A stretch of 21,057 nucleotides of DNA from a virus. Location: the IMG/VR virus record IMGVR_UViG_3300035459_000126, positions 1 through 21,057 of that record; one strand, given 5' to 3'. The notes beneath the pieces are model-generated. The model was not told where the DNA came from and did no database searches. It worked only from the letters and a program-made list of their open reading frames with translations. Shown one piece after another: positions 7,143 to 21,057 of the stretch. How positions within the stretch are numbered: position 1 is the stretch's first letter; every line of letters begins with the position of its first letter. A program made the position numbers and the translations under genes.

Positions 7143-7560
7143 TCCCAGGACGGGACGTTTCTTTTCTAAGACAAGTTGGATGGAAATAGTCCGGGCAGTA
7201 TCGAATCTACTGTTGGCCGTGGCCGTTATCATCTTGGCCTCGTCGGACTACCAACTGCGATTCATCAAGGGGCACTACGACAAGCCGTGTGAGGTTGTCG
7301 TAGTGCCTGTCTGTACGCACGGCCACCCCGTAAGTGGCTGTTGTGCCACGTGTGCTAACGAACGATACCGCTGGATGCGGGAGCATGGAGAGCAATATGC
7401 CACACCCAACAATTCTCCGAGTCGCCGTGGAAGTGATAGTAAGGTTGTCGATCCTAGCGATAGTCATAGGACTGCTAGCGTTGTGTACGTGCCGTGTGTT
7501 TGGTGCCGACCAGCCTGTTGCTGGTACCGTACCGGACTGCGGCGATACCGCTGCCGCTAA
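7126..7560 (+). CDS. Membrane protein with Cys cluster, long overlap
   Basis: ATG 7126 follows AGGAGGTGT by five bases and overlaps the upstream gene end. The N-terminus is soluble and basic, one membrane helix follows (about 20-41), then a Cys/His-rich segment C-T-H-G-H-P-V-S-G-C-C-A-T-C that could bind metal. After about residue 90 the frame runs 164 bases into the next gene, where the sequence becomes Arg/Ser/Cys-rich and looks like an out-of-frame reading. So the N-terminal part is well supported and the tail is doubtful: either a true overlap or a lost stop codon. The layout (one membrane helix, overlapping gene downstream) recalls Rz spanins, but the partner gene is not an Rz1-type lipoprotein. 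Confidence 0.6.
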   Translation: MVLERDPRTGRFFSKTSWMEIVRAVSNLLLAVAVIILASSDYQLRFIKGHYDKPCEVVVVPVCTHGHPVSGCCATCANERYRWMREHGEQYATPNNSPSRRGSDSKVVDPSDSHRTASVVYVPCVWCRPACCWYRTGLRRYRCR

Positions 7561-8281
7561 ACCACAGCAACCAGCACAGCAGGTAACGGCTGCCGACCCG
7601 CAGCCGTTGATCCTACTGGTGACGGCCAAGTGGTGCCCGGTCTGCCACGACGCAGAAGGTGCGCTAAGCAAGATGCGAGCCGCTGGAGAACTGGATGGCT
7701 TCTACATGATGAAGGTCGATTACGACGAGAACCGCAAGCTGGCTGAGGCAGTGATGCAGGGCAGTGGTTCGACAGGCATACCACAGCTTGTAGTCTACCG
7801 ACCTATCAAACGACTACTCGGTCGTGTGGACCGAACGCAGATTGGCAAGCAGCTAAGTGGTGTAGTGAAAGCCGGCGGGACGGCTGTGTCGGTAACGCCA
7901 CCCACGGTAATCGTGCCAATACCCTCTGTGGCTCCCGCACCGGTGTTCCGTTCGCCTCGGCACCCTATACTCGACCAAGCAGCCCAAGCCCACGCCGACT
8001 ATCAAGCCGCCCGCCAGGTGCAAAGCCACCAGGGCTTCGGCGAACGCTTTGCCATGTTCACCCGCGATATAGGTCAGGTGGAGTATGCCGAGATATGCAA
8101 CGAGAGTTGGCCCGAGCAGGTCGGGGCAAGCTATGATGAACTGTGGACTGATGCTGTAAGCGACTGGCGACAGTCACCTGGTCATTGGTCCGTAGCCAGT
8201 CGCGTCCACGCTGCCGCGGGCTTCGGGCTACAGCGTGGACGCAATGGTGTGTGGTACTCGTGTATTGACGTGAAAGACTAA
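7397..8281 (+). CDS. Secreted thioredoxin-CAP fusion protein, 294 aa
   Basis: ATG 7397 is chosen because GGAG (7387-7390) lies six bases upstream and the frame then starts with a signal peptide (hydrophobic 8-31, likely cut after V-F-G-A at 34-37). Residues about 68-165 are a thioredoxin fold with W-C80-P-V-C83 and the conserved cis-Pro P129 in G-I-P-Q. After a Pro/Val linker (166-188), residues 189-292 resemble a CAP/SCP (YkwD-like) domain: A-x-x-H-A helix, H211 in S-H-Q-G-F, E232 in A-E-I-C-N-E-S, D-A-V-S-D-W, and H263 in S-P-G-H-W, then G-F-G and W-Y. Both CAP histidines and a glutamate are present. I do not recall this fusion in phages. Likely acts on thiols and an envelope ligand or polymer outside the membrane; this is inference. 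Confidence 0.8.
   Translation: MPHPTILRVAVEVIVRLSILAIVIGLLALCTCRVFGADQPVAGTVPDCGDTAAAKPQQPAQQVTAADPQPLILLVTAKWCPVCHDAEGALSKMRAAGELDGFYMMKVDYDENRKLAEAVMQGSGSTGIPQLVVYRPIKRLLGRVDRTQIGKQLSGVVKAGGTAVSVTPPTVIVPIPSVAPAPVFRSPRHPILDQAAQAHADYQAARQVQSHQGFGERFAMFTRDIGQVEYAEICNESWPEQVGASYDELWTDAVSDWRQSPGHWSVASRVHAAAGFGLQRGRNGVWYSCIDVKD
8160..8242 (+). repeat. Two adjoining perfect inverted repeats in CAP region
   Basis: GCGACTGGC (8160-8168) matches GCCAGTCGC (8195-8203), a perfect 9-bp inverted repeat. GCGTCCACGCTG (8202-8213) matches CAGCGTGGACGC (8231-8242), a perfect 12-bp one with a 17-base loop. The two share bases 8202-8203 and lie within the CAP-coding sequence near the end of the gene. No T-tract follows. 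They could fold into tandem hairpins in mRNA or single-stranded DNA. Confidence 0.7.
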
Positions 8282-9916: not shown

Positions 9917-10624
9917 ATGCCTGGTATACTGAAAACACCCAGCGAACTGCGACGAGAGTCACGACGACTCAAGATTGCAATGTTGCTATTGAAGGGAATA
10001 ACGTGCCAGACACGTATAGCGGAAATGGTAGGCTGCTCCAGGCTTACACTGATGGGAGACCTGAAAGCAGTACGACAACAGTGGCGCCAAGACATGGTCC
10101 AGATGTTTGACCATGCCAAAGAGGAGCAACTGAAACGAATCGACCGAATCGAAGAAGAAGCCTGGCGTGCATGGGATAGGAGTTGCAGGACCTTTCGTAC
10201 CAAACCACGACTGCGATTGGACAGCAACGAGGTTGAGGTAGTGAACACCCAGGCTGGTGATCCGCGATTCCTTGACCTGGCACGTAAGTGCTGCGAGGAT
10301 CGGCGTAAACTGCTGGGATTGGACGAGCCGGAGAAGATCGACATCAAAGGTCAGGTAGTTGTGGCCTCTGTACAACTACAGCAGGCCATCGAGACGAATG
10401 GAGAGTATATTGAGTACCGCAGACAGCTTGCTTTTGGACGGAGCCCTGTCGCCAGGCTTCCTAGCCCTAACGACGAGCAATGGCCAGTGGCAGGCAGCAC
10501 GGCACTTGAGCCTGTTGGATACCCTGTTGGAGCGAATGGCAACGGGCAATCCACTGTTGCCCGAACAGCAGTGGCTAGGCCCCGTAATCGGCTTGCCCCA
10601 AGCGGCAATGGACAAGCCAATTAG
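9917..10624 (+). CDS. terS: Terminase small subunit (probable), 235 aa
   Basis: ATG 9917 begins a protein with an N-terminal helix-turn-helix (about 18-52; I-A-E-M-V-G-C-S-R-L-T-L), a charged helical region, and a segment R-F-L-D-L-A-R-K-C-C-E-D-R-R-K-L-L-G-L-D. That segment is typical of phage small terminase and HTH packaging proteins, which recognise the packaging site and feed DNA to TerL. The TerL gene overlaps it by 227 bases, and the last 75 residues are low-complexity Gly/Asn/Pro/Ala-rich, so the tail may be constrained mainly by the overlapping TerL frame. No clear ribosome site precedes the start in the 71-base gap 9846-9916, in which I see nothing else. Confidence 0.75.
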   Translation: MPGILKTPSELRRESRRLKIAMLLLKGITCQTRIAEMVGCSRLTLMGDLKAVRQQWRQDMVQMFDHAKEEQLKRIDRIEEEAWRAWDRSCRTFRTKPRLRLDSNEVEVVNTQAGDPRFLDLARKCCEDRRKLLGLDEPEKIDIKGQVVVASVQLQQAIETNGEYIEYRRQLAFGRSPVARLPSPNDEQWPVAGSTALEPVGYPVGANGNGQSTVARTAVARPRNRLAPSGNGQAN

Positions 10625-11927
10625 GCGGCTGTTCGTTGAGATGCCACCTCGACATGGGAAGTCCGAACTCGATAGCCGGTACTTCCCGGCTTGGCACGCC
10701 GGCCTCTACCCGCAGCGGGACTTGATCCTTACGTCTGCTACTGACGACCTGGTGATGGACTTCTCGCAGGCGGCACTGGACTTGGTCGTAGAGTATGGTC
10801 CGTCAGTGTTCGGACAACAGGCCCGGGTCCGCCGCGACGTGCGAGCGAGGCACCGCTGGCAGATGGAGCTTGGTGGTGCCGTACGTGCTGCTGGTATTGG
10901 TGGCTCGATTATGGGTCGTGGTGCAAACGGCTTGCTGGTCGACGACTACTTAAAGAACATGGAGGAGGCGTTGAGCGAGACGTACCGCGAGAAGATATAC
11001 CGCTGGTACCTATCGACAGCCTCAACCCGCTTGGCCCCCGATGCTTGGGTCGTGATAGTAGCCACCCGCTGGCACCGCAAGGACTTGATTGGTCGCCTGC
11101 TGGAGGATATGAACAACGGTGGTGAGCACTGGTGCCGACTGCGATTGCCAGCCCTGGCCGAGGAGAATGATCCGCTGGGTCGCAAGCCCGGTGAGGCACT
11201 ATGGCCCGAAAGGTTCCCCCAAGCATGGCTTGAGTCGGTACGTGACAAGTACCGTGCATCGGGCTACGAATGGATGTGGGAGGCCCTCTACCAACAGAAC
11301 CCGCCGGAGGTAATGGATGCCGAGTTCCAGGCAGACTACTTCCCCGAAAGCATGTGGTTCAAGGATTGGCCTTGCGAACTGGTGCATCGTATCCAGACCT
11401 GCGACCCGTCGTTGGGCAAGACTGACAAGAGCGACTACCAGGCCCATGTGCTAATGGGCCTGGACCGAGAAGGTGTGATGTGGGTCGAGGGGGACTTGCG
11501 ACGTAGGGACCGCGTGCAGATAGTTGGTGACATGCTGGACCTGGGTCGGTGGTTCAAGCCGGAGGCGGTAGGGATCGAATCGAACATGTGGCAGGTGCTG
11601 CTGGCCGACCAGTTGTACGAGCAGAGCAAGGCTAGCGGAATGAGCCTGCCAATCTGGCCCATGAACAACTGGGAGAACAAGATGGTGCGAATCCGTGCCA
11701 CCTTGACGCCATACCTATCGCGGAAGGAGTTCCGGTTCCGCGACACTCCAGGTACCAGGTTGTTGGTGGAACAGCTTCGAGGCTTTCCGACCTGCAAGTA
11801 CGACGATGGTCCTGATGCTCTGGAGTTGGCCGTGAGGTTGATGCGCGACGTGTTCCAACGTGGTGCAAACGGCCAGCCAATGGAGGACCCGGACAGCGAG
11901 TTGGTTTCCCACGGTATGTTGTTATAA
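10398..11927 (+). CDS. terL: Terminase large subunit, 509 aa
   Basis: The packaging motor ATPase-nuclease. Residues counted from ATG 10398: Walker A M-P-P-R-H-G-K-S at 82-89; Walker B L-L-V-D-D at 179-183; coupling motif A-T-R-W-H at 222-226. The RNase H-like nuclease has D336 (C-D-P-S), E394 (I-E-S-N) and the D469/D470...D473 group (D-D-G-P-D-A-L). All catalytic parts are present and the length is normal. The start is uncertain: the first in-frame start is TTG 10359, ATG 10398 gives the usual adaptor region before Walker A, and ATG 10611 would remove it. No strong ribosome site precedes any of these, so coupling to the small subunit is likely. The stop codon lies within the promoter-like TATAAT at 11923-11928. 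Confidence 0.95.
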   Translation: MESILSTADSLLLDGALSPGFLALTTSNGQWQAARHLSLLDTLLERMATGNPLLPEQQWLGPVIGLPQAAMDKPIRRLFVEMPPRHGKSELDSRYFPAWHAGLYPQRDLILTSATDDLVMDFSQAALDLVVEYGPSVFGQQARVRRDVRARHRWQMELGGAVRAAGIGGSIMGRGANGLLVDDYLKNMEEALSETYREKIYRWYLSTASTRLAPDAWVVIVATRWHRKDLIGRLLEDMNNGGEHWCRLRLPALAEENDPLGRKPGEALWPERFPQAWLESVRDKYRASGYEWMWEALYQQNPPEVMDAEFQADYFPESMWFKDWPCELVHRIQTCDPSLGKTDKSDYQAHVLMGLDREGVMWVEGDLRRRDRVQIVGDMLDLGRWFKPEAVGIESNMWQVLLADQLYEQSKASGMSLPIWPMNNWENKMVRIRATLTPYLSRKEFRFRDTPGTRLLVEQLRGFPTCKYDDGPDALELAVRLMRDVFQRGANGQPMEDPDSELVSHGMLL

Positions 11928-11949: not shown

Positions 11950-13791
11950 ATGGCTAACGACACACTAGAGTCTGCCGCTCCTATCGACGAACTGGAGCGG
12001 AAGTTCCGGGCCAACCGGCTTTCTATGGACATCCGCTTGCAGGAGGCCCAGATCAAACAACTGGACCGTGCCCTGGCCCTCGATGCCTCACGCCGCAGCT
12101 TTGGCAGCGCCGGCGACCAAGAGGTCATGGAAGGTTTGTACGCCCCGGAGGACTATGTTGATGTGATGGACTATCGCCGCGACAACTACGGCTACCAAGC
12201 CTATGCGGCGACCTTCACTACAAAGACAGACCGCCAGGACGGCCGCAACTGGCCCTACTGGGTCAGCGAGCCAGAGCTGGCTGCCATCCGTGGGACTGTT
12301 CGACTGCTGGCTGCCTACAACAAGACCTGCTTTGGGATTCTCAACAAACTCCGCAATTACACCGTCAGCAAGGGTTTCACTCGGAAGGTGGTATCCAAGC
12401 GAGGGGCACCAAAGAGCCTCACCAGCGCAATTGAAACCATTCTGGATGAGTTTGATGTACTCAACCAGATCACGGGCAACATGGACCAGGAAGCTATTAT
12501 CCGCGACATCCGCGATGGCGAGGTTGCACTGGGCTTGTGGCACCGCGGAGAAGGTCGCGTGGACCTACGGACCGTCGAGCCGGACCAGATCAGCGAACCG
12601 ACGAACAAAGGCGACCTCGAAGAGTGGCTGCGGACCGAGCACGCCATGGGCCTCGAAGGTGAGGACTGCGGACTGCCATTCGAGAGTAACTGGTCGTTTG
12701 GTATCCACACGACCAAGGGCGACGTGTGTAACAAGCATGGCTACTACGTCCAATGGGATGGCGACCCGTCCAACTGGGACTACCTGCCCGGAGGTAACAA
12801 CCCCTGCTACCCGCCTGCCGGAGGAGCCAACACGTGGCTTGAGTTCCGCAAGTCGAATACCGACAGGGTCATCAAACGTGGTGTGAGCGACTTTTGGCCT
12901 GTCACGGGTGATGTGGAGTTGGCTCGTAAGATGATCCGCAACCTGACCCACGCTGGTGCATTGCAAGCCGCGATTGCATGGATCAGGGAGATGGCACCCG
13001 GCACGACACAATCGCAGGTCAGTAGTGCTACGATGGCGACGGCCGACTGGCAGACGAGGACCGCAACGCAGAACGGTGGTACCAGGACCTCGTACCAGCA
13101 GACCTACCAACCAGGCAGCACATTGTACCTTGGCGCCAATCAAAAGTTTGTGCCGCCGCCGTGGGTGCAGCAGTCGATGGCAGCAGGCTTGGTCAACATC
13201 TTCGAGGCTATGCTGCGGAGCATCAGCCAGATATGGTCGATGCCGGAGCACATGATCACGGGCAGTGCCCAGAACAACAACTACGCAAGCATCCTAGAGG
13301 CTGGCAGTCCATTCGTCAAAGAGGTCGAGACGAGGCAGGGCTGGCACGCCAACCTATGGACCGCGGTCTACTGGAAGGTGGTATGGTTCAACTGGCGCTG
13401 TGGACGGTTGGGCAAGTATGCCTGGCGTGACATCCGCCAGGCTGTTGAGATTATCCTGACTGGACCGCAGGTGGACGTGAGGGACCGGATGAAGGAGACC
13501 CAGAAGAACATCCTGCTCCTGGATGCTGGCATCATGTCGCCAGTCGAAGCCGCTAGCCGCGAGGGTATGGACTACGACGATCAGGTCCGTCAGGGTGCCA
13601 AGCCGCGACAGGTACCCTTGAACGCTGCTAGTGCGGTTGGAGCTAGTGGTAAGCTGGGTCCGCAGAAGGGATTCACGCCTGAAGGTCCGGTTTCTGAGTC
13701 GTTAAGCGAGGATGAGAATGGTATAGTCCCAACAGGCGGCTTTGCCAAACTGGCTGGCGCCACAGGCTCACACTGGGGGACCTATCCATGA
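11950..13791 (+). CDS. Portal protein, 613 aa
   Basis: ATG 11950 follows GGAGGAAAC by five bases; longer in-frame starts overlap terL. Position right after terL, size of about 600 residues, and the sequence pattern support a portal, the dodecameric ring at the capsid vertex through which DNA enters. Near residue 100 there is W-P-Y-W-V-S-E-P-E-L followed by long helices. A C-terminal part has S-M-P-E-H-M-I-T-G-S and a segment E-A-G-S-P-F-V-K-E-V-E (about 450-460), typical of portal clip and stem regions. The C-terminal 60 residues are Gly/Pro/Ser-rich and probably disordered. The stop overlaps the next start by four bases (ATGA). I rely on family pattern and synteny, not on a signature motif. 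Confidence 0.88.
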   Translation: MANDTLESAAPIDELERKFRANRLSMDIRLQEAQIKQLDRALALDASRRSFGSAGDQEVMEGLYAPEDYVDVMDYRRDNYGYQAYAATFTTKTDRQDGRNWPYWVSEPELAAIRGTVRLLAAYNKTCFGILNKLRNYTVSKGFTRKVVSKRGAPKSLTSAIETILDEFDVLNQITGNMDQEAIIRDIRDGEVALGLWHRGEGRVDLRTVEPDQISEPTNKGDLEEWLRTEHAMGLEGEDCGLPFESNWSFGIHTTKGDVCNKHGYYVQWDGDPSNWDYLPGGNNPCYPPAGGANTWLEFRKSNTDRVIKRGVSDFWPVTGDVELARKMIRNLTHAGALQAAIAWIREMAPGTTQSQVSSATMATADWQTRTATQNGGTRTSYQQTYQPGSTLYLGANQKFVPPPWVQQSMAAGLVNIFEAMLRSISQIWSMPEHMITGSAQNNNYASILEAGSPFVKEVETRQGWHANLWTAVYWKVVWFNWRCGRLGKYAWRDIRQAVEIILTGPQVDVRDRMKETQKNILLLDAGIMSPVEAASREGMDYDDQVRQGAKPRQVPLNAASAVGASGKLGPQKGFTPEGPVSESLSEDENGIVPTGGFAKLAGATGSHWGTYP

Positions 13792-14066: not shown

Positions 14067-14294
14067 GTGGATGTCTTGGACCTCATTCCACTGGAGTTGG
14101 AGCCTGAAGAGCGGGCAAGGTATGAACCGCTCCACCGGCGGTACCTTTCGATGTCGTCCATGCCGAGTTGCCGGTTAGCAGCTACGGAGCAGTCGGATGA
14201 TGACGTGAGCTACCGCCACAAGGTGAACGTAGCCGCGCAAGAGATGAATCGCAAGGCTGACGAGATTGTTGGTAACGAGTTGGAGATGTGGTGA
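14067..14294 (+). CDS. Small hypothetical protein, 75 aa
   Basis: GTG 14067 has GGAG at 14054-14057, nine bases upstream. The product is acidic at the N-terminus (M-D-V-L-D-L-I-P-L-E-L-E-P) with a charged helical C-terminus (H-K-V-N-V-A-A-Q-E-M-N-R-K-A-D-E). No signal peptide or membrane helix. The stop TGA overlaps the next ATG (TGATG), so it is coupled to the head-morphogenesis gene and may assist it. No family recognised. Confidence 0.6.
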   Translation: MDVLDLIPLELEPEERARYEPLHRRYLSMSSMPSCRLAATEQSDDDVSYRHKVNVAAQEMNRKADEIVGNELEMW

Positions 14295-14932
14295 TGCCGG
14301 GACTGGATGACCGCAACCGCCGGGAAGCCGACTTAGCAGCGGCACTACTGTCGCTGTTCCAGGACTACGACGATGCAACGCAGATCGACTGGGCCGTGTT
14401 GCAGGGCGAGTTGGAAGCCATCCTGGGCCAACATCTGGCCGATACCTACCGAGCCTCATTCGAGCAACTACGCGACCAACTAGAGCTGGACTTGTCCGAC
14501 GCGGACTTGGAGCGTGGTGGTACAGGCTTGGACGCCAAGGCTACCGACTGGGCGGACAAGTACAGCAACGAGTTGGCTGCCTTGATCGTTGCGAACACAC
14601 AGGGCAAACTACAAGAGCAGCAGGCTGCTGGTGAAGAGATCGACCTCAGCAACCAGTTCGACAAGGCCCGTGCCGATCGCATAGCCATTACCGAGACAAC
14701 CCGGTCGATAACAGCAGGCGAGTTCGGCGTGGTGAGTACCGCGATAGGACTTGGCTTGATGACCGGCAACGAGGCCATCTGGCGGACGGCCGAGGACGAA
14801 CTGGTCTGTGAGGAGTGTGCTCCGCTGAACGGACAACCACAGGACGTGTGGAGCTTGGAGGCACCAGCCGGTCCACCGCTCCACGTCAACTGCCGCTGTG
14901 AACTAGACTACCAGATGGGTATGTTAGAGTAA
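14294..14932 (+). CDS. Head morphogenesis protein, Mu gpF / SPP1 gp7-like
   Basis: ATG 14294 overlaps the upstream TGA, with GGAG at 14282-14285. The 212-residue protein has a helical N-terminal part and a C-terminal domain with T-E-T-T-R-S (134-139), W163-x-T-A-E-D-E-L-V-C172-E-E-C175, L-N-G, and P-P-L-H197-V-N-C200-R-C202. This T-E-x-x-R ... W-x-x-x-x-D-x-x-V-C-x-x-C ... P-P-x-H-x-N-C-R-C pattern is that of the phage Mu gpF/SPP1 gp7 head-morphogenesis (minor capsid) family; the Cys/His set may bind metal. Members associate with the portal and capsid interior. Position after the portal fits. Confidence 0.88.
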   Translation: MPGLDDRNRREADLAAALLSLFQDYDDATQIDWAVLQGELEAILGQHLADTYRASFEQLRDQLELDLSDADLERGGTGLDAKATDWADKYSNELAALIVANTQGKLQEQQAAGEEIDLSNQFDKARADRIAITETTRSITAGEFGVVSTAIGLGLMTGNEAIWRTAEDELVCEECAPLNGQPQDVWSLEAPAGPPLHVNCRCELDYQMGMLE

Positions 14933-14955
14933 CCCTTAGCTTCGGGAGAATTGTG

Positions 14956-17373
14956 ATGGCAGATAAGATTGCGGACGTTACAGTAGAACTACCAAAGGTC
15001 AGCATCGTGGCCTGCATGCCTTGCGGCGGGGACGTGAACCCGATGGCTGCCAAGGCATACTTCGTTGAGATGTCGAAGACGTTGGTGGCCAGTGGTGCGG
15101 CGATCATGCGACTGGACCCAACGCCGACGAGCAACTTGGCTATGGGCTTCAACCGAGCACTCTGCTTCGCGTTGAACTTGAAAGCCAAGGGCCTGTGCAC
15201 CCACTTTGCGATGCTACACGCCGACATCCAACCGGACCCCTTCTGGCTTGACACCCTGTGGGACGAGATGCAGGCCACCAACGCACACTGGATTGCCGCT
15301 GCGTCGCCCATCAAAGACTGCCATGGGACGACCAGTACAGCCATCGGCCACCAGGACTGCTGGAACCCGTGGGCCAGGATCACGATGCACGAGTTGCATG
15401 AGTTGCCTGAGACCTTCTCGATCGACGACCTCGGCGACCAGGCTGCCCAGTTAGGCTACCACCTGTTGTTGAACACAGGTTGCATGTTGATCGACCTCCG
15501 GCCGGAGTACTGGGATCGTGTGGGCGACCGCGGTGAACTGGCACCCCACTTCGACATCCGCAACCGGATCGTATTCGTACCTGGTGACGGGTGGCAGGCG
15601 CAGACGGAGACCGAGGATTGGATGCTGAGCCGCATCCTGCATGGATTTGGAGCAAGGCTGTTCTGCACAAGGAAGGTCAAGGTGAAGCATTACGGCCAAC
15701 TGCCCTTTAGCTCGGCTATGCCCTGGGGTGATTGGTTGCAGGATCAGGCGGGCGGACGTGCTGCTCGGCAGTTCACTGGCAACGTTGCGATCCACGAGCA
15801 CGGCTACTGGCTTGAGAACCTACCAGACGGGGCAATCCATGATCCTGGGCTGGAGCAGGCCCTCGTTCGACTGTGTCAGGAAACCGACTCGAACATCGTC
15901 GACCTAGGCTGCGGTCGTGGTTGGTATGTGAACGCCCTGCATCGTGCTGGCGTAGAAGTGATTGGCTACGACGGCAACCCGAAGGTGAAGGAGCAGGGTG
16001 AGTTGTTCTTCCAGTGCGATCTGGTCGAACCGCAATCGTGGCCCCAGCAGTTCGACATTGCCCTGTGCCTTGAGGTTGGGGAGCACATACCGCTGAAGTT
16101 CGCTGACCAGCTACTCGACAACGTCTGCAATGCCGCACGGCGGCAGGTAGTCCTATCATGGGCCGTACCAGGGCAGCCGGGCCACGGGCATGTCAACTGC
16201 CAGGAGAACACTTGGGTCGAGGAGCGGATGGAGCAACGCGGGTTCCGCCGGAACACTGTTGTGGAGGCGGCAATCAAGAGCACCATAGCCTTGACGTACT
16301 TCCATAACACGCTGATGGTCTACGACCGCGTGGAAGGTGGAGCAGTCGTCATCAACCGCGATGCCTTCCTACGGAAGGAGCCCGGCACGGTCGAGGAGGT
16401 CCGCCGCCGCATGGCTGAGGGTGAGCCACTGCACCACATCCAAGACGACTTGGACTACCGGGAGAACCAGCATCGTGTATGGAATCGGATGTTCGTGGAC
16501 CACTACCAGATGGTCACGTTCGAGGACCTGACCAAGCAGACCTTAGTGCTGGCGGGCAAACTACCACCCAACCTGTCAGGTGTGCTGGGTGTTAGTCGCA
16601 AGGGGATGCTGCCCGCGACGATCCTGGCTACACGGTTGCACCTGCCGCTGGGCGATGCCGGCTCATACCTGACCAACGGGTTCTTCACGCCTGGTGACCG
16701 GACTCCGTTGTACGAGGTTGCCGGTCCTATCTTGGTTGTTGATGATGGTGTGGGTACCGGCAAGACAATGGCGGAGATGATGCAGTCGCTGCGGCAGCAT
16801 CGTCCACATGAGCAGTTCCTATCGGCCGCCGTCTACGTGTCCGATACGAAGCGGCCGGGCGTGGACTACTGGGCCCGGCCAATCAGCATCATGCAACCGC
16901 AGGAGACGGAGTTCCTCAACACCTTCAGTGCCCGGCAGTGGGCCGTGGACCTGGACGGTGTTATCTGCAAGCTGCCTGAGGACAACTGCGAGTCGGACGA
17001 CGAGGACTACTGGCGCCGGCACTTCGAGACCGTGCAGCCACTCTACCTGCCGAGGCTTGTGCCGGTGAAAGCCATCGTTACCAGCCGCCTGGAGAAGTAC
17101 CGCAAGGTGACCGAGGAGTGGCTTGACCGCTGGGGCGTGAAGTACGGCGAGCTTGTGATGCACTCCGCCACCAGTGCCGTGGAGCGGGACCGAGACCCAA
17201 CGAGCCACGGGATTCGGAAGGGCCACTGGTTCCGCAACCGCCGCGACACTACGCTGTTCGTCGAGAGTGAGCTGGACCAGGCCCGGCAGATCGTTGACAT
17301 CAGCGGCAAGTTGGTGTTCTGCACTGCAACCCACCGCCTGATGGGTGCCATAGCCATTGTCGAAGGTGACTAG
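14956..17373 (+). CDS. Four-domain enzyme: GT + SAM-MTase + PRTase + HAD, 805 aa
   Basis: ATG 14956 follows GGGAGAA; GTG 14953 is one codon earlier. Domain 1 (about 14-250) resembles a GT-A glycosyltransferase, with H-A-D-I-Q-P-D (88-94) as the metal-binding DxD-like site. Domain 2 (about 283-455) is a class I SAM methyltransferase, with V-D-L-G-C-G-R-G (315-322) and I-G-Y-D-G-N-P after strand 2. Domain 3 (about 518-650) is a type I phosphoribosyltransferase, with the PRPP loop V-V-D-D-G-V-G-T-G-K-T (594-604). Domain 4 (about 661-790) is a HAD phosphatase-like domain, with D665-L-D667-G-V, T709-S-R and an acidic F-V-E-S (768-771) where motif IV usually has Asp residues. All key motifs look intact, so a multistep sugar, nucleotide or modification pathway is likely; substrates are unknown. 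It lies between head and protease genes, in which no such enzyme is expected. Confidence 0.8.
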   Translation: MADKIADVTVELPKVSIVACMPCGGDVNPMAAKAYFVEMSKTLVASGAAIMRLDPTPTSNLAMGFNRALCFALNLKAKGLCTHFAMLHADIQPDPFWLDTLWDEMQATNAHWIAAASPIKDCHGTTSTAIGHQDCWNPWARITMHELHELPETFSIDDLGDQAAQLGYHLLLNTGCMLIDLRPEYWDRVGDRGELAPHFDIRNRIVFVPGDGWQAQTETEDWMLSRILHGFGARLFCTRKVKVKHYGQLPFSSAMPWGDWLQDQAGGRAARQFTGNVAIHEHGYWLENLPDGAIHDPGLEQALVRLCQETDSNIVDLGCGRGWYVNALHRAGVEVIGYDGNPKVKEQGELFFQCDLVEPQSWPQQFDIALCLEVGEHIPLKFADQLLDNVCNAARRQVVLSWAVPGQPGHGHVNCQENTWVEERMEQRGFRRNTVVEAAIKSTIALTYFHNTLMVYDRVEGGAVVINRDAFLRKEPGTVEEVRRRMAEGEPLHHIQDDLDYRENQHRVWNRMFVDHYQMVTFEDLTKQTLVLAGKLPPNLSGVLGVSRKGMLPATILATRLHLPLGDAGSYLTNGFFTPGDRTPLYEVAGPILVVDDGVGTGKTMAEMMQSLRQHRPHEQFLSAAVYVSDTKRPGVDYWARPISIMQPQETEFLNTFSARQWAVDLDGVICKLPEDNCESDDEDYWRRHFETVQPLYLPRLVPVKAIVTSRLEKYRKVTEEWLDRWGVKYGELVMHSATSAVERDRDPTSHGIRKGHWFRNRRDTTLFVESELDQARQIVDISGKLVFCTATHRLMGAIAIVEGD

Positions 17374-17501: not shown

Positions 17502-17546
17502 AACACCCCTCTATCCTGTACAGGAGGGTAGAGGGGTGTTTTCTTT
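17502..17546 (+). terminator. Strong intrinsic terminator or attenuator
   Basis: AACACCCCTCTA (17502-17513) pairs perfectly with TAGAGGGGTGTT (17529-17540). The loop contains a further palindrome CCTGTACAGG (17515-17524), and TTTTCTTT follows. It lies 43 bases after the expected start of the promoter-like site and 22 bases before the protease ATG, so the head genes downstream would be transcribed by read-through or antitermination. Confidence 0.8.
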
Positions 17547-17568
17547 GGGTCCAGGAGAGAACCAAGCA

Positions 17569-18933
17569 ATGCCATTTGTAAGCGAAGCACAACGAGCGTT
17601 CATGCACGCCAAGCATCCCAAGCTGGCGAAGGAGTTCGAGGAGGCGACGCCGAAGGACAAGAAATTGCCTGAGCACGTCAAAGGCAGCAAGTCGCCCGTA
17701 GCGAAAGCCAAGACAAAAGCAGGCAAAACCATAGTGAAAGCCAAGGTCAAGGCCAAGAACGCCCAAGAGTCCGCTATCGACCCCACGAAGCTGCTGCCTC
17801 GCAAGATCGAGCGGGATGTACTGGAGTATGTGCAGGCCACCAAGCCCTGTCGCGTGGATCGTGACAAGGGTATCATCTACGGTTGCAAGCTCGTGGGACT
17901 GCAATCGAAGAACGGTGGCCGGTACACGCTTGAGGGTCTCCGCGAGGCGGCCCCGATGTTCGAGGGAGCCAAGTGCAACCTCAACCACCCGGACCGTGAC
18001 AAGCCTGGCAAGGACCGCGACGTGCAGGACCGGTTTGGCATCTTCCACAACTACATGGTTGGCGACGACGGTGCCTACGCGGACCTGCACTATCTGAAGT
18101 CCCACCCGTTCGCCGCCGTGGCTTGCGAGGCTGCAGAGAATCCCCAACTGGAGACGGCTCTGGGCTTCTCGCAGAATGCCCGTACGATCCAAGTTCCCGA
18201 CGGCAACGGCGGGATTATCCACGAGAGTATTACCCGGGTGCGGTCCGTCGACCTTGTGGCCGATCCGGCAACCACCTGTTCCATCTTTGAAAGCGAGAAC
18301 CAAGCTATGAACGACCCGCACACGCAGGGTATGGCTGGTGACGACGTGGTTCCCGATGCGACGACGGATACCGCAGCCGCCATCGAGCAAGACCCCGTCG
18401 ACATTGCGATCGACGCGTTGTTGGGCAAGTACCTGCCCGACATCAAGGCGGCCGACAAGGCCGGTCGTAAGCCGTTGCTGAACGACTTGCGGAAGAAGAT
18501 CGACGCCATCATCGACGCCCTCAGCGAGGAGCCGGAGAAGGCCGAAACCACGACCGAAGGTTCGGAGACCGAGGGCGAAGAGAAGTCGACCGAGGAATCC
18601 GTCAAGGAGGAAAAGACCGTGGAGAAGTCCAAGACGACCGAGCAGAAGGTCAAGCCCGATTACGAGCAGGCCCTCGACGTGCTCGAGTCGGCCAAGGTGC
18701 AGCCGACCTCGATCCGTATCAAGGCCCTGTTGGCTTTACCGGCCGAGGACCGTTCGGCGTTGGCCGAGAGCTGGCCCAAGATCGGTGCCACGACCGAGCA
18801 GAAGGTCAAGCCCAAGAGCAGCTCCGTGTTGGAGTCGTTCAAGGACAAGGACGAGAAAGCTGCGACGCTGCCGTTCCCGACAGCCGAGCAGTTGAAGGAC
18901 GATGCGATGTTGCTGATGGCCGGAGCACGCTAA
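17569..18933 (+). CDS. Prohead protease with C-terminal scaffold, 454 aa
   Basis: ATG 17569 has AGGAGAG upstream; the in-frame GTG at 17536 lies inside the terminator stem and is rejected. Residues 1-37 are a short domain often seen in phage proteins (M-P-F-V-S-E-A-Q-R-A-F-M). A Lys/Ala linker follows (40-65). The protease domain (about 85-245) has G-I-I-Y-G, N-H140-P and G-F-S201-Q-N-A, then R-S-V-D-L-V-A-D-P-A-T. This His/Ser pattern fits Mu gpI-like prohead serine proteases of the herpesvirus-assemblin fold. The C-terminus (from M247) is acidic, coiled-coil and repeat-containing, as scaffolds are. The protease should cleave scaffold and capsid arms during maturation. Gene order before the decoration and capsid genes supports this. 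Confidence 0.88.
   Translation: MPFVSEAQRAFMHAKHPKLAKEFEEATPKDKKLPEHVKGSKSPVAKAKTKAGKTIVKAKVKAKNAQESAIDPTKLLPRKIERDVLEYVQATKPCRVDRDKGIIYGCKLVGLQSKNGGRYTLEGLREAAPMFEGAKCNLNHPDRDKPGKDRDVQDRFGIFHNYMVGDDGAYADLHYLKSHPFAAVACEAAENPQLETALGFSQNARTIQVPDGNGGIIHESITRVRSVDLVADPATTCSIFESENQAMNDPHTQGMAGDDVVPDATTDTAAAIEQDPVDIAIDALLGKYLPDIKAADKAGRKPLLNDLRKKIDAIIDALSEEPEKAETTTEGSETEGEEKSTEESVKEEKTVEKSKTTEQKVKPDYEQALDVLESAKVQPTSIRIKALLALPAEDRSALAESWPKIGATTEQKVKPKSSSVLESFKDKDEKAATLPFPTAEQLKDDAMLLMAGAR
18295..18309 (+). promoter_or_regulatory. Internal translation start copying the protease start
   Basis: GAGAACCAAGC-T-ATG (18295-18309) repeats GAGAACCAAGC-A-ATG (17557-17571) at the protease start. Eleven bases are identical and the distance to ATG is the same. 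The internal ATG 18307 is in frame (codon 247) just after the protease domain. Confidence 0.65.
18307..18933 (+). CDS. Nested scaffold protein, 208 aa (in-frame)
   Basis: An in-frame internal ATG at 18307 with a copied translation-start sequence would give the C-terminal 208 residues of the protease gene as a separate protein. It is acidic and helical with long Glu/Lys/Thr-rich stretches and a helical end (F-P-T-A-E-Q-L-K-D-D-A-M). That is the composition of phage scaffolds, and the arrangement matches lambda C/Nu3 and Mu I/Z, where scaffold is made from an internal start within the protease gene. Expression of the short form is inferred from sequence only. Confidence 0.6.
   Translation: MNDPHTQGMAGDDVVPDATTDTAAAIEQDPVDIAIDALLGKYLPDIKAADKAGRKPLLNDLRKKIDAIIDALSEEPEKAETTTEGSETEGEEKSTEESVKEEKTVEKSKTTEQKVKPDYEQALDVLESAKVQPTSIRIKALLALPAEDRSALAESWPKIGATTEQKVKPKSSSVLESFKDKDEKAATLPFPTAEQLKDDAMLLMAGAR
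18634..18813 (+). repeat. 24-bp direct repeat in scaffold region
   Basis: The 24-bp sequence beginning ACGACCGAGC and ending TCAAGCCC occurs at 18634-18657 and again at 18790-18813. Each copy encodes T-T-E-Q-K-V-K-P. The copies flank a helical domain of about 45 residues (Y-E-Q-A-L-D to the second T-T-E-Q), suggesting a duplicated linker or module boundary. Confidence 0.8.
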
Positions 18934-20073: not shown

Positions 20074-20093
20074 GAAAGTGAGACCTAACAATG
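20074..20093 (+). promoter_or_regulatory. Shared translation-start element, capsid gene
   Basis: GAAAGTGAGACCT (20074-20086), identical to 19008-19020, ends four bases before the major-capsid ATG. Both of these virion genes use it in place of the AAGGAGGTG sites common elsewhere in the window. Confidence 0.65.
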
Positions 20094-21057
20094 GCGTTTT
20101 CCATCGACTACGCACGACGGATGTACGCCGACCGGGGCCCGGTCGGTTTCGTTCGCTCGATGCACAGCTTGCTTGGTCTTCGCAATGCGAAGGGCATCAA
20201 GCATCGTGACGCCGAGGGCCGACCGGTTCTGGAGAGTCAGACGATCCGGCCCGACAGCGTGTCGCTCAAAGCGCTCGCCACTGCAATCTTCGGAGAGCAG
20301 AACATCGAGCGCCGCTTGAGCTGTCCGGCTCCCCAGATTGCGGAGCTTGAAGGTGATGTCCTCGAAGCAGGGAACGACATCGTCCCCGGCAACTTCGCCG
20401 ACATCACGGCCTACAACGAGACAGTTGCCGGCCTGCTGGAAGTCAAGATTCTCGAAGCCTACAACCGGCCCGAGTTCATTGCTCCGCAGTTGGCGACGAA
20501 CATCCCCTCGAACAAGGTTCAGGAGAAGTTCATCGGTGTCTCGACGCCGGCCGACGCCGCCCAGGAGCGTAAGCCTGGTCAGCAACACCCGCGTGCCCAG
20601 TTGACGGAACGGTACGTGACCACCCCGGTTACCAAGAATCGGGCGAACGCCGTTGACGTGACCCGCGAGGCAGTGATGTTCGACCTGACTCGTCAGGTTA
20701 TGGAACACGCCGAGCTTGTCAGCCAAACGCTGGCTTTGCGGAAAGAGTACCTGATGTTGGACGTGGTGCTGGGGATCAGCAATTCCTACACCTACGACGG
20801 CACCTCGTACTACACCTACGTTGCCAGCGGCGGGAACTGGGTCAACGTCGTCAACAACGACCTGACCGACTGGACCTGCTTGGACACGGACTACGTGCTG
20901 TTCAGCAAGATGGTCGATCAAGAGACCGGCCAGCCGATCAGCGTCGATGCCCGTGACCTGTTGGTCATGCCTGGACGCCGTGCGTTGATGGACAAAATCC
21001 TCAGCGACACCCAAGTCCGCCATGGCGCCGCCGCTTCGACGACTACGGTTGGTCAGC
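20091..21057 (+). CDS. Major capsid protein (3' partial)
   Basis: From ATG 20091 the frame stays open to the window end (322 codons, stop not reached). The N-terminus (M-A-F-S-I-D-Y-A-R-R) leads into a charged helical region, then G-N-D-I-V-P-G-N-F-A-D and a long domain with E-R-Y-V-T-T-P-V-T-K-N-R, T-R-E-A-V-M-F-D and D-L-L-V-M-P-G-R-R-A-L-M-D. The last segment (V-x-P-x-x-x-x-x-L near an L-V-M strand) is typical of the P-domain of HK97-fold capsid proteins. Position after protease/scaffold and decoration genes is that of lambda E and HK97 gp5. HK97 fold is inferred from synteny and pattern. The first 60 residues could be a delta domain removed by the protease. Confidence 0.85.
   Translation, partial: MAFSIDYARRMYADRGPVGFVRSMHSLLGLRNAKGIKHRDAEGRPVLESQTIRPDSVSLKALATAIFGEQNIERRLSCPAPQIAELEGDVLEAGNDIVPGNFADITAYNETVAGLLEVKILEAYNRPEFIAPQLATNIPSNKVQEKFIGVSTPADAAQERKPGQQHPRAQLTERYVTTPVTKNRANAVDVTREAVMFDLTRQVMEHAELVSQTLALRKEYLMLDVVLGISNSYTYDGTSYYTYVASGGNWVNVVNNDLTDWTCLDTDYVLFSKMVDQETGQPISVDARDLLVMPGRRALMDKILSDTQVRHGAAASTTTVGQ

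Follow-up and report, generated by a model that had tools for sequence, protein, structure and literature searches.

Glycosylation of phage virions is a recent finding: few of the enzymes are known, and even fewer of the glycan structures. The passages of PMC12363180 and PMC11256854 that deal with it, citing Freeman 2023, describe the mycobacteriophages Che8, Corndog and Myrna as using phage glycosyltransferases (GTs) to glycosylate capsid and tail proteins. The archaeal virus STIV encodes A197, an essential GT proposed to act on the glycosylated capsid protein of this virus (PMC10551542).

In bacterial glycan assembly, PRPP-dependent ribofuranosyltransferases have been characterised that employ a phosphoribosyltransferase (PRTase) together with a HAD domain (PMC11127046, PMC10299916, PMC11231755). 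Examples are found in K. pneumoniae O4/O7 and in CriT/CrpP of Hib Bcs3, where a gPRT and a PRP occur in the same protein (PMC11127046, PMC10299916, PMC11231755). In the Hib capsule polymerase Bcs3, a single polypeptide combines both with another transferase (PMC10299916). PRP domains carry a helical cap (PMC11127046), and a methyltransferase that terminates O-polysaccharide chains has also been described in the ribofuranosyltransferase literature (PMC11231755).

Here we analyse an IMG/VR virus record, a linear fragment of 21,057 bp (the window), which encodes a protein composed of a GT-A, a methyltransferase, a PRTase and a HAD domain. With the mycobacteriophages it has phage-encoded GTs in common; in the passages cited above (PMC12363180, PMC11256854) no PRTase-HAD module is mentioned. 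Compared with the characterised ribofuranosyltransferases it adds the GT-A and methyltransferase domains and is located in a phage head module. We propose that this protein is a single-polypeptide glycan synthase of the head module, and give the scheme as a whole a probability of about 45%. The locus brings into view a GT-A family that is widespread, has neither a name nor a Pfam, NCBIfam or PHROG model, is found mostly in head modules and swaps its partners. A second indication is that phages possess a PRTase-HAD module like those by which bacteria transfer PRPP-based ribose to their glycans.

One gene within the head module

The right half of the window is a head module, in which a small terminase-like gene, the terminase large subunit, the portal and a MuF/gpF-like gene are followed by the four-domain gene, a predicted protease, one further gene and the major capsid protein (Table 1). 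The four-domain gene is a single stop-free frame that begins with ATG at 14956 and ends with TAG at 17371-17373. GGGAG is found upstream of its start, and an in-frame GTG lies at 14953. Codon-position GC is about 0.6/0.4/0.75-0.84 and similar across all four domains and the adjacent head genes, while the five other frames contain 13-29 stops each, which together argue for one coding gene and against a chance reading frame. These two measures were used instead of codon-usage correlation, which did not discriminate (0.84 in the frame +1 control).

An earlier note on this DNA had placed the gene between a gpF-like head gene and a protease, and this placement holds. The protease label is one that we infer: the only match of this gene is phrog_29592, which is annotated as 'unknown' and is also matched by protease-MCP fusion proteins.

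Table 1. The four-domain gene, its domains and the annotated head genes of the window
Feature	Coordinates	Strand	Basis
Four-domain protein (GT-A/methyltransferase/PRTase/HAD)	14956..17373	+	805 aa; frame, codon-position GC
GT-A glycosyltransferase domain	14995..15720	+	residues 14-255; 30-sequence alignment, model, fold search
Class I SAM methyltransferase domain (Methyltransf_23)	15802..16320	+	residues 283-455; Pfam E 7e-10
Type-I phosphoribosyltransferase (PRTase) domain	16507..16905	+	residues 518-650; Pfam E 7e-8; XGPRT fold Z 14.5
HAD phosphatase domain	16936..17355	+	residues 661-800; alignments; T4 Pnkp 3'-phosphatase fold Z 12.1
MuF/gpF-like head morphogenesis gene, upstream neighbour	14288..14932	+	PHROG head morphogenesis matches
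Downstream head gene, predicted protease	17536..18933	+	phrog_29592; same position in L002
Terminase large subunit	10359..11927	+	phrog_38 E 2e-77
Portal protein	11953..13791	+	phrog_21 E 4e-23
Major capsid protein (MCP), runs off window end	20091..21056	+	Pfam Phage_capsid_4 E 5e-6

Folds and catalytic residues of the four domains

The earlier note had read the gene product as an 805-residue fusion of four enzymes on the basis of the motifs HADIQPD, DLGCGRG, VVDDGVGTGKT and DLDGV. We find these motifs starting at residue 88, at 315 (as VDLGCGRGW), at 594 and at 665, respectively, and the uninterrupted frame and the folds of all four domains bear the reading out. Profile searches with the separate pieces, which the note had suggested, identified two of them. 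The methyltransferase, which contains the SAM motif DLGCGRG, matches Methyltransf_23 over residues 303-392 (39.3 bits against a cut-off of 27), and the PRTase piece matches Pribosyltran above the cut-off, but neither the GT nor the HAD piece matched any Pfam family. For these two, predicted structures and their solved counterparts provided the support.

The GT domain has no counterpart in Pfam, NCBIfam or PHROG, and a PDB sequence search with a two-member GT profile returned chance matches only. An AlphaFold model was generated from an alignment of 30 sequences (pLDDT 91, pTM 0.88). Its best match among solved structures is STIV A197, likewise a viral GT-A enzyme (Z 16.7 over 174 residues, 2.8 Å), although A197 is a single small domain from an archaeal virus and shares just 16% identity with the window protein. 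The collagen-modifying transferases LH3/COLGALT1, which are GT-A like STIV A197, follow with Z 14-16. H88 and D90 (within THFAMLHxD), E220/D221 of the ED motif and H245 are invariant in the 30 sequences. The metal motif is HxD and not the classical DxD; apart from this exchange, the invariant residues fit the pattern of metal-dependent GT-A enzymes.

The AlphaFold model of the C-terminal half has a pLDDT of 81. A structure search with it places the PRTase fold nearest to xanthine-guanine PRTases. The domain has a PRPP loop, VVDDGVGTGKT with D596 and D597, and a PPi-loop-like VSRKG. Model residues 157-293 match the 3'-phosphatase of T4 Pnkp, a HAD enzyme. In each of three alignments (plasmid, viral and combined), the HAD residues D665, D667, T709, K755 and E770 do not vary, with 44 residues separating D665 of motif I from T709 of motif II. 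A role as polynucleotide kinase was considered and rejected because no kinase domain is found and the full-length bacterial relatives are PRTase-HAD proteins; the shared HAD fold explains the matches to such kinases. Judged by motifs and folds, all four domains are real and appear intact.

Could such a set of enzymes act on DNA? Phage DNA glucosyltransferases exist, and a GT with its partners might attach groups to modified bases in the DNA of the phage. We regard this as very unlikely, given that the gene is placed in the head module and not with nucleotide metabolism, that Pfam detects no DNA-binding domain in the protein, and that 21 records (the window and 20 related ones, most of them fragments) contain no thymidylate-synthase-like gene.

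A head-module GT family with exchangeable partners

A two-sequence profile search recovered GT relatives at 54 IMG/VR loci, some of them near-duplicates. In cultured phages, a tblastn search of phage isolates gave weak matches and none that was convincing; Enterococcus matches at E 0.5 were set aside as chance. At no fewer than 31 of the 54 loci, the fetched flanks contain a portal, protease, MCP, terminase or connector gene (23 recognised through window-seeded profiles and PHROG spot-checks, 8 through direct PHROG matches), and the loci show several different head-module layouts.

The nearest relative (locus L002, 63% identity) has the gene order of the window, terminase - portal - MuF - GT - protease - MCP. 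Its GT is a stand-alone protein of 292 residues, with the protease gene starting a few bases later. The other three domains were therefore gained at, or lost from, the C-terminus, and by this comparison the GT apparently performs its function without them. In the same locus, a long intein-like stretch interrupts the portal ORF (L002:4429-7200); the portal of the window has none.

Fusion partners are found on either side of the GT. Among 30 members they comprise Methyltransf_24 (eight cases), SPASM of the radical SAM type (four), Methyltransf_23 (two) and DUF3431 (one). Elsewhere the enzymes are encoded separately: L026 (= L089) has GT, radical-SAM-like and Methyltransf_23 genes in succession with overlapping ends. 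The gene most similar to the window's methyltransferase domain, with 46% identity, stands by itself in the head module of L206 (also in L039); in L206 it is located between the head protease and the MCP, with a GT gene after the MCP. A scan for relatives of this methyltransferase gave six loci, three of which had been found before. The novelty thereby extends beyond the single protein to a GT-A family of head modules that has no name and changes its partner enzymes, and that is linked here to a PRTase-HAD unit otherwise found in glycan loci of bacteria. At L025:3880-5508, L036:5866-7437 and L037:5746-7431, the GT is extended by a C-terminal radical-SAM/SPASM-like domain and adjoins protease-MCP fusion genes.

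The complete four-domain order is a singleton within the data searched. Neither the 55 related viral records nor the phage collection contains a second case, in agreement with the earlier note, whose author knew of no phage enzyme with this order. The whole 805-residue query had no match in viral contigs; it was profiles of the halves that brought up relatives there, and single-sequence patterns of the PRTase-HAD half gave nothing. A unique copy, with a nearest relative in which the GT stands alone, raises the question of whether separate genes were joined during assembly. Such an artefact is scarcely credible in view of the uninterrupted frame, its uniform codon-position composition, and independent contigs with a GT-methyltransferase fusion (L053) and a PRTase-HAD-GT fusion (L106).

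The PRTase-HAD half and its bacterial relatives

When compared with plasmids, the PRTase-HAD half finds relatives in 41 records, with 30-35% identity over both domains and E-values down to 6e-34. They come mostly from Rhizobium, Sinorhizobium and Paracoccus, and most of those annotated are named 'phosphoribosyltransferase family protein'. The proteins of Paracoccus, Rhizobium and Mesorhizobium share both domains, their order and all HAD motif residues with the window protein, yet in the loci read they stand alone, fused to neither a GT nor a methyltransferase. Several of the plasmid genes adjoin genes for a polysaccharide flippase, GTs, a nucleotide sugar dehydrogenase and acyltransferases; at L092 the flippase is a Polysacc_synt_3 protein (E 1e-83). 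In Rhizobium etli a GT28 gene follows two genes on, in an otherwise mixed neighbourhood. A scan of genomes gave 468 relatives, and the best 80 of these 468 are nearly all from Alphaproteobacteria. Of 12 such genome loci examined, most have a flippase-like gene next to PRTase-HAD. On the strength of this homology, the PRTase-HAD half is one known bacterial unit.

In viral contigs, a profile search found the two-domain unit over most of its length at 11 loci. L100 and L104 share the order GT2 - methyltransferase(s) - PRTase-HAD - GT, and one methyltransferase of L100 belongs to the rhamnosyl-O-methyltransferase/CmcI family. In L102 a terminase is followed by methyltransferases, PRTase-HAD and GTs. 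An unrelated phage contig encodes a 623-residue fusion of PRTase-HAD with a GT (Glyco_trans_1_4) between the MCP gene and a head-tail adaptor (L106:5950-7821). In L109 and L110 the unit is preceded by tail-type genes and followed by sulfotransferase-like ones, from which a radical SAM gene separates it in L110, and in L103, L105 and L108 no glycan genes are evident in the neighbourhood. The sulfotransferase-like genes (L109:6653-7240 and L110:5718-6479) might add a further glycan decoration; a corresponding Pfam match is seen in L110 only and lies below the cut-off.

These neighbourhoods bear on a proposal of the earlier note, which likened the PRTase and HAD domains to the nucleoside-like metabolite modules of Ter stress systems. 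Such a synthase would convert a base and PRPP to a nucleotide, which the HAD domain dephosphorylates and the GT and methyltransferase decorate. Ter modules do combine PRTases and HAD phosphatases (PMC7824862), and among solved structures it is xanthine-guanine PRTases that the PRTase domain resembles most. The likeness gains no support otherwise: the nearest PRTase-HAD homologues are located in polysaccharide and not in Ter loci, PRTase_2 (PF15609) reaches 19.5 bits against a cut-off of 28.8 and over the motif region only, and TerD is absent from the 21 records, mostly fragments. We therefore consider a nucleoside-like product quite improbable.

How does the unit relate to the characterised ribofuranosyltransferases? 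A PRTase fold with a PRPP loop and a HAD domain in the same protein are found in both, and the unit looks to work like the gPRT-PRP enzymes. The helical cap is where they part: in Hib CrpP it spans residues 393-490 (about 98 residues; PMC10299916), whereas the window's HAD domain has no large cap. The window has the order PRTase-HAD, Hib the order HAD-PRTase, and the window's PRTase keeps the canonical DD motif that CriT lacks. A PRTase-HAD profile found no chain named ribofuranosyltransferase at E <= 10 in the PDB, in which some characterised members are absent, and no entry so named was among the best 50 listed in a structure search with the PRTase-HAD model. Because of the missing large cap, the domain order opposite to Hib and the lack of a named PDB match, the unit is not filed in the gPRT-PRP family; it is a distinct bacterial family, for which no characterised member was found.

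A proposed glycan synthase for the virion

The computed evidence consists of four folds with catalytic motifs, the placement in the head module, the exchange of partners and the homology of the PRTase-HAD half to glycan-locus proteins. We favour a glycan synthase because of the PRTase-HAD kin in polysaccharide loci, the GT and methyltransferase neighbours in phages and the characterised ribofuranosyltransferases with PRTase and HAD. That the product is of the glycan type is probable, and that it contains a PRPP-derived ribofuranose is somewhat less so, though still rather likely. Counting against the scheme are the lone GT of L002, the differences between the PRTase-HAD unit and the characterised ribofuranosyltransferases, and the phage PRTase-HAD genes of L103, L105 and L108, which belong to no evident glycan cluster.

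In the proposed scheme, the GT-A domain would use an NDP-sugar to glycosylate either a head-protein side chain or a sugar that this protein already bears, and could thereby supply the acceptor for ribose addition. The PRTase domain would then add ribose-5-phosphate, presumably with PRPP as donor, and the HAD domain would remove the 5-phosphate to leave a ribofuranose. Finally, the methyltransferase might cap the glycan by O-methylation. This sequence of steps is suggested by the chemistry; in the domain order, the methyltransferase comes second.

As in virion glycosylation, the GT is encoded among structural genes. The position of the gene, the structural neighbours of the GT, the virion glycosylation of mycobacteriophages and the proposal for STIV together make a head protein a reasonably likely acceptor. 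The earlier note had left a choice between DNA, capsid and a small molecule as the target of a modified sugar or nucleotide. A sugar on the capsid is now the best-supported of these, while DNA gained no positive support.

The same chemistry could nevertheless be directed at host LPS or capsule precursors, for receptor masking or superinfection exclusion, in which case the location in the head module would reflect nothing but late transcription. Against this modification of the host surface stands the GT family itself, which stays with head genes across different phage lineages and whose nearest folds include protein-modifying enzymes; nor is there a flippase, polymerase or membrane component among the annotated genes of the window. 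The bacterial PRTase-HAD homologues in LPS/capsule-type loci, the viral PRTase-HAD genes found outside head genes and the described phage clusters for capsular-polysaccharide modification (PMC7824862) do fit it, and we rate it as unlikely.

Returning to the virion, the fullest version of our proposal is a tentative one: a self-contained, PRPP-dependent machine that places a methyl-capped ribofuranose glycan on a phage head protein and whose GT-A domain belongs to a new, partner-swapping family of head-module transferases. If true, PRPP would serve as an activated donor for virion glycans without an NDP-sugar pathway, and the domain architecture would allow a testable guess at the sugar on a capsid.

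Other features of the window

Outside the head module, the window starts with 14 tandem copies of an 18-bp unit (positions 1-257, at the start of the contig) that is open in three forward frames. A short ORF at 758-1093 shows CxxC motifs in pairs, with a RING-like match below threshold, and the phage ORF at 7334-8281 combines a thioredoxin/glutaredoxin-like domain with a subsequent weak match to a CAP domain.
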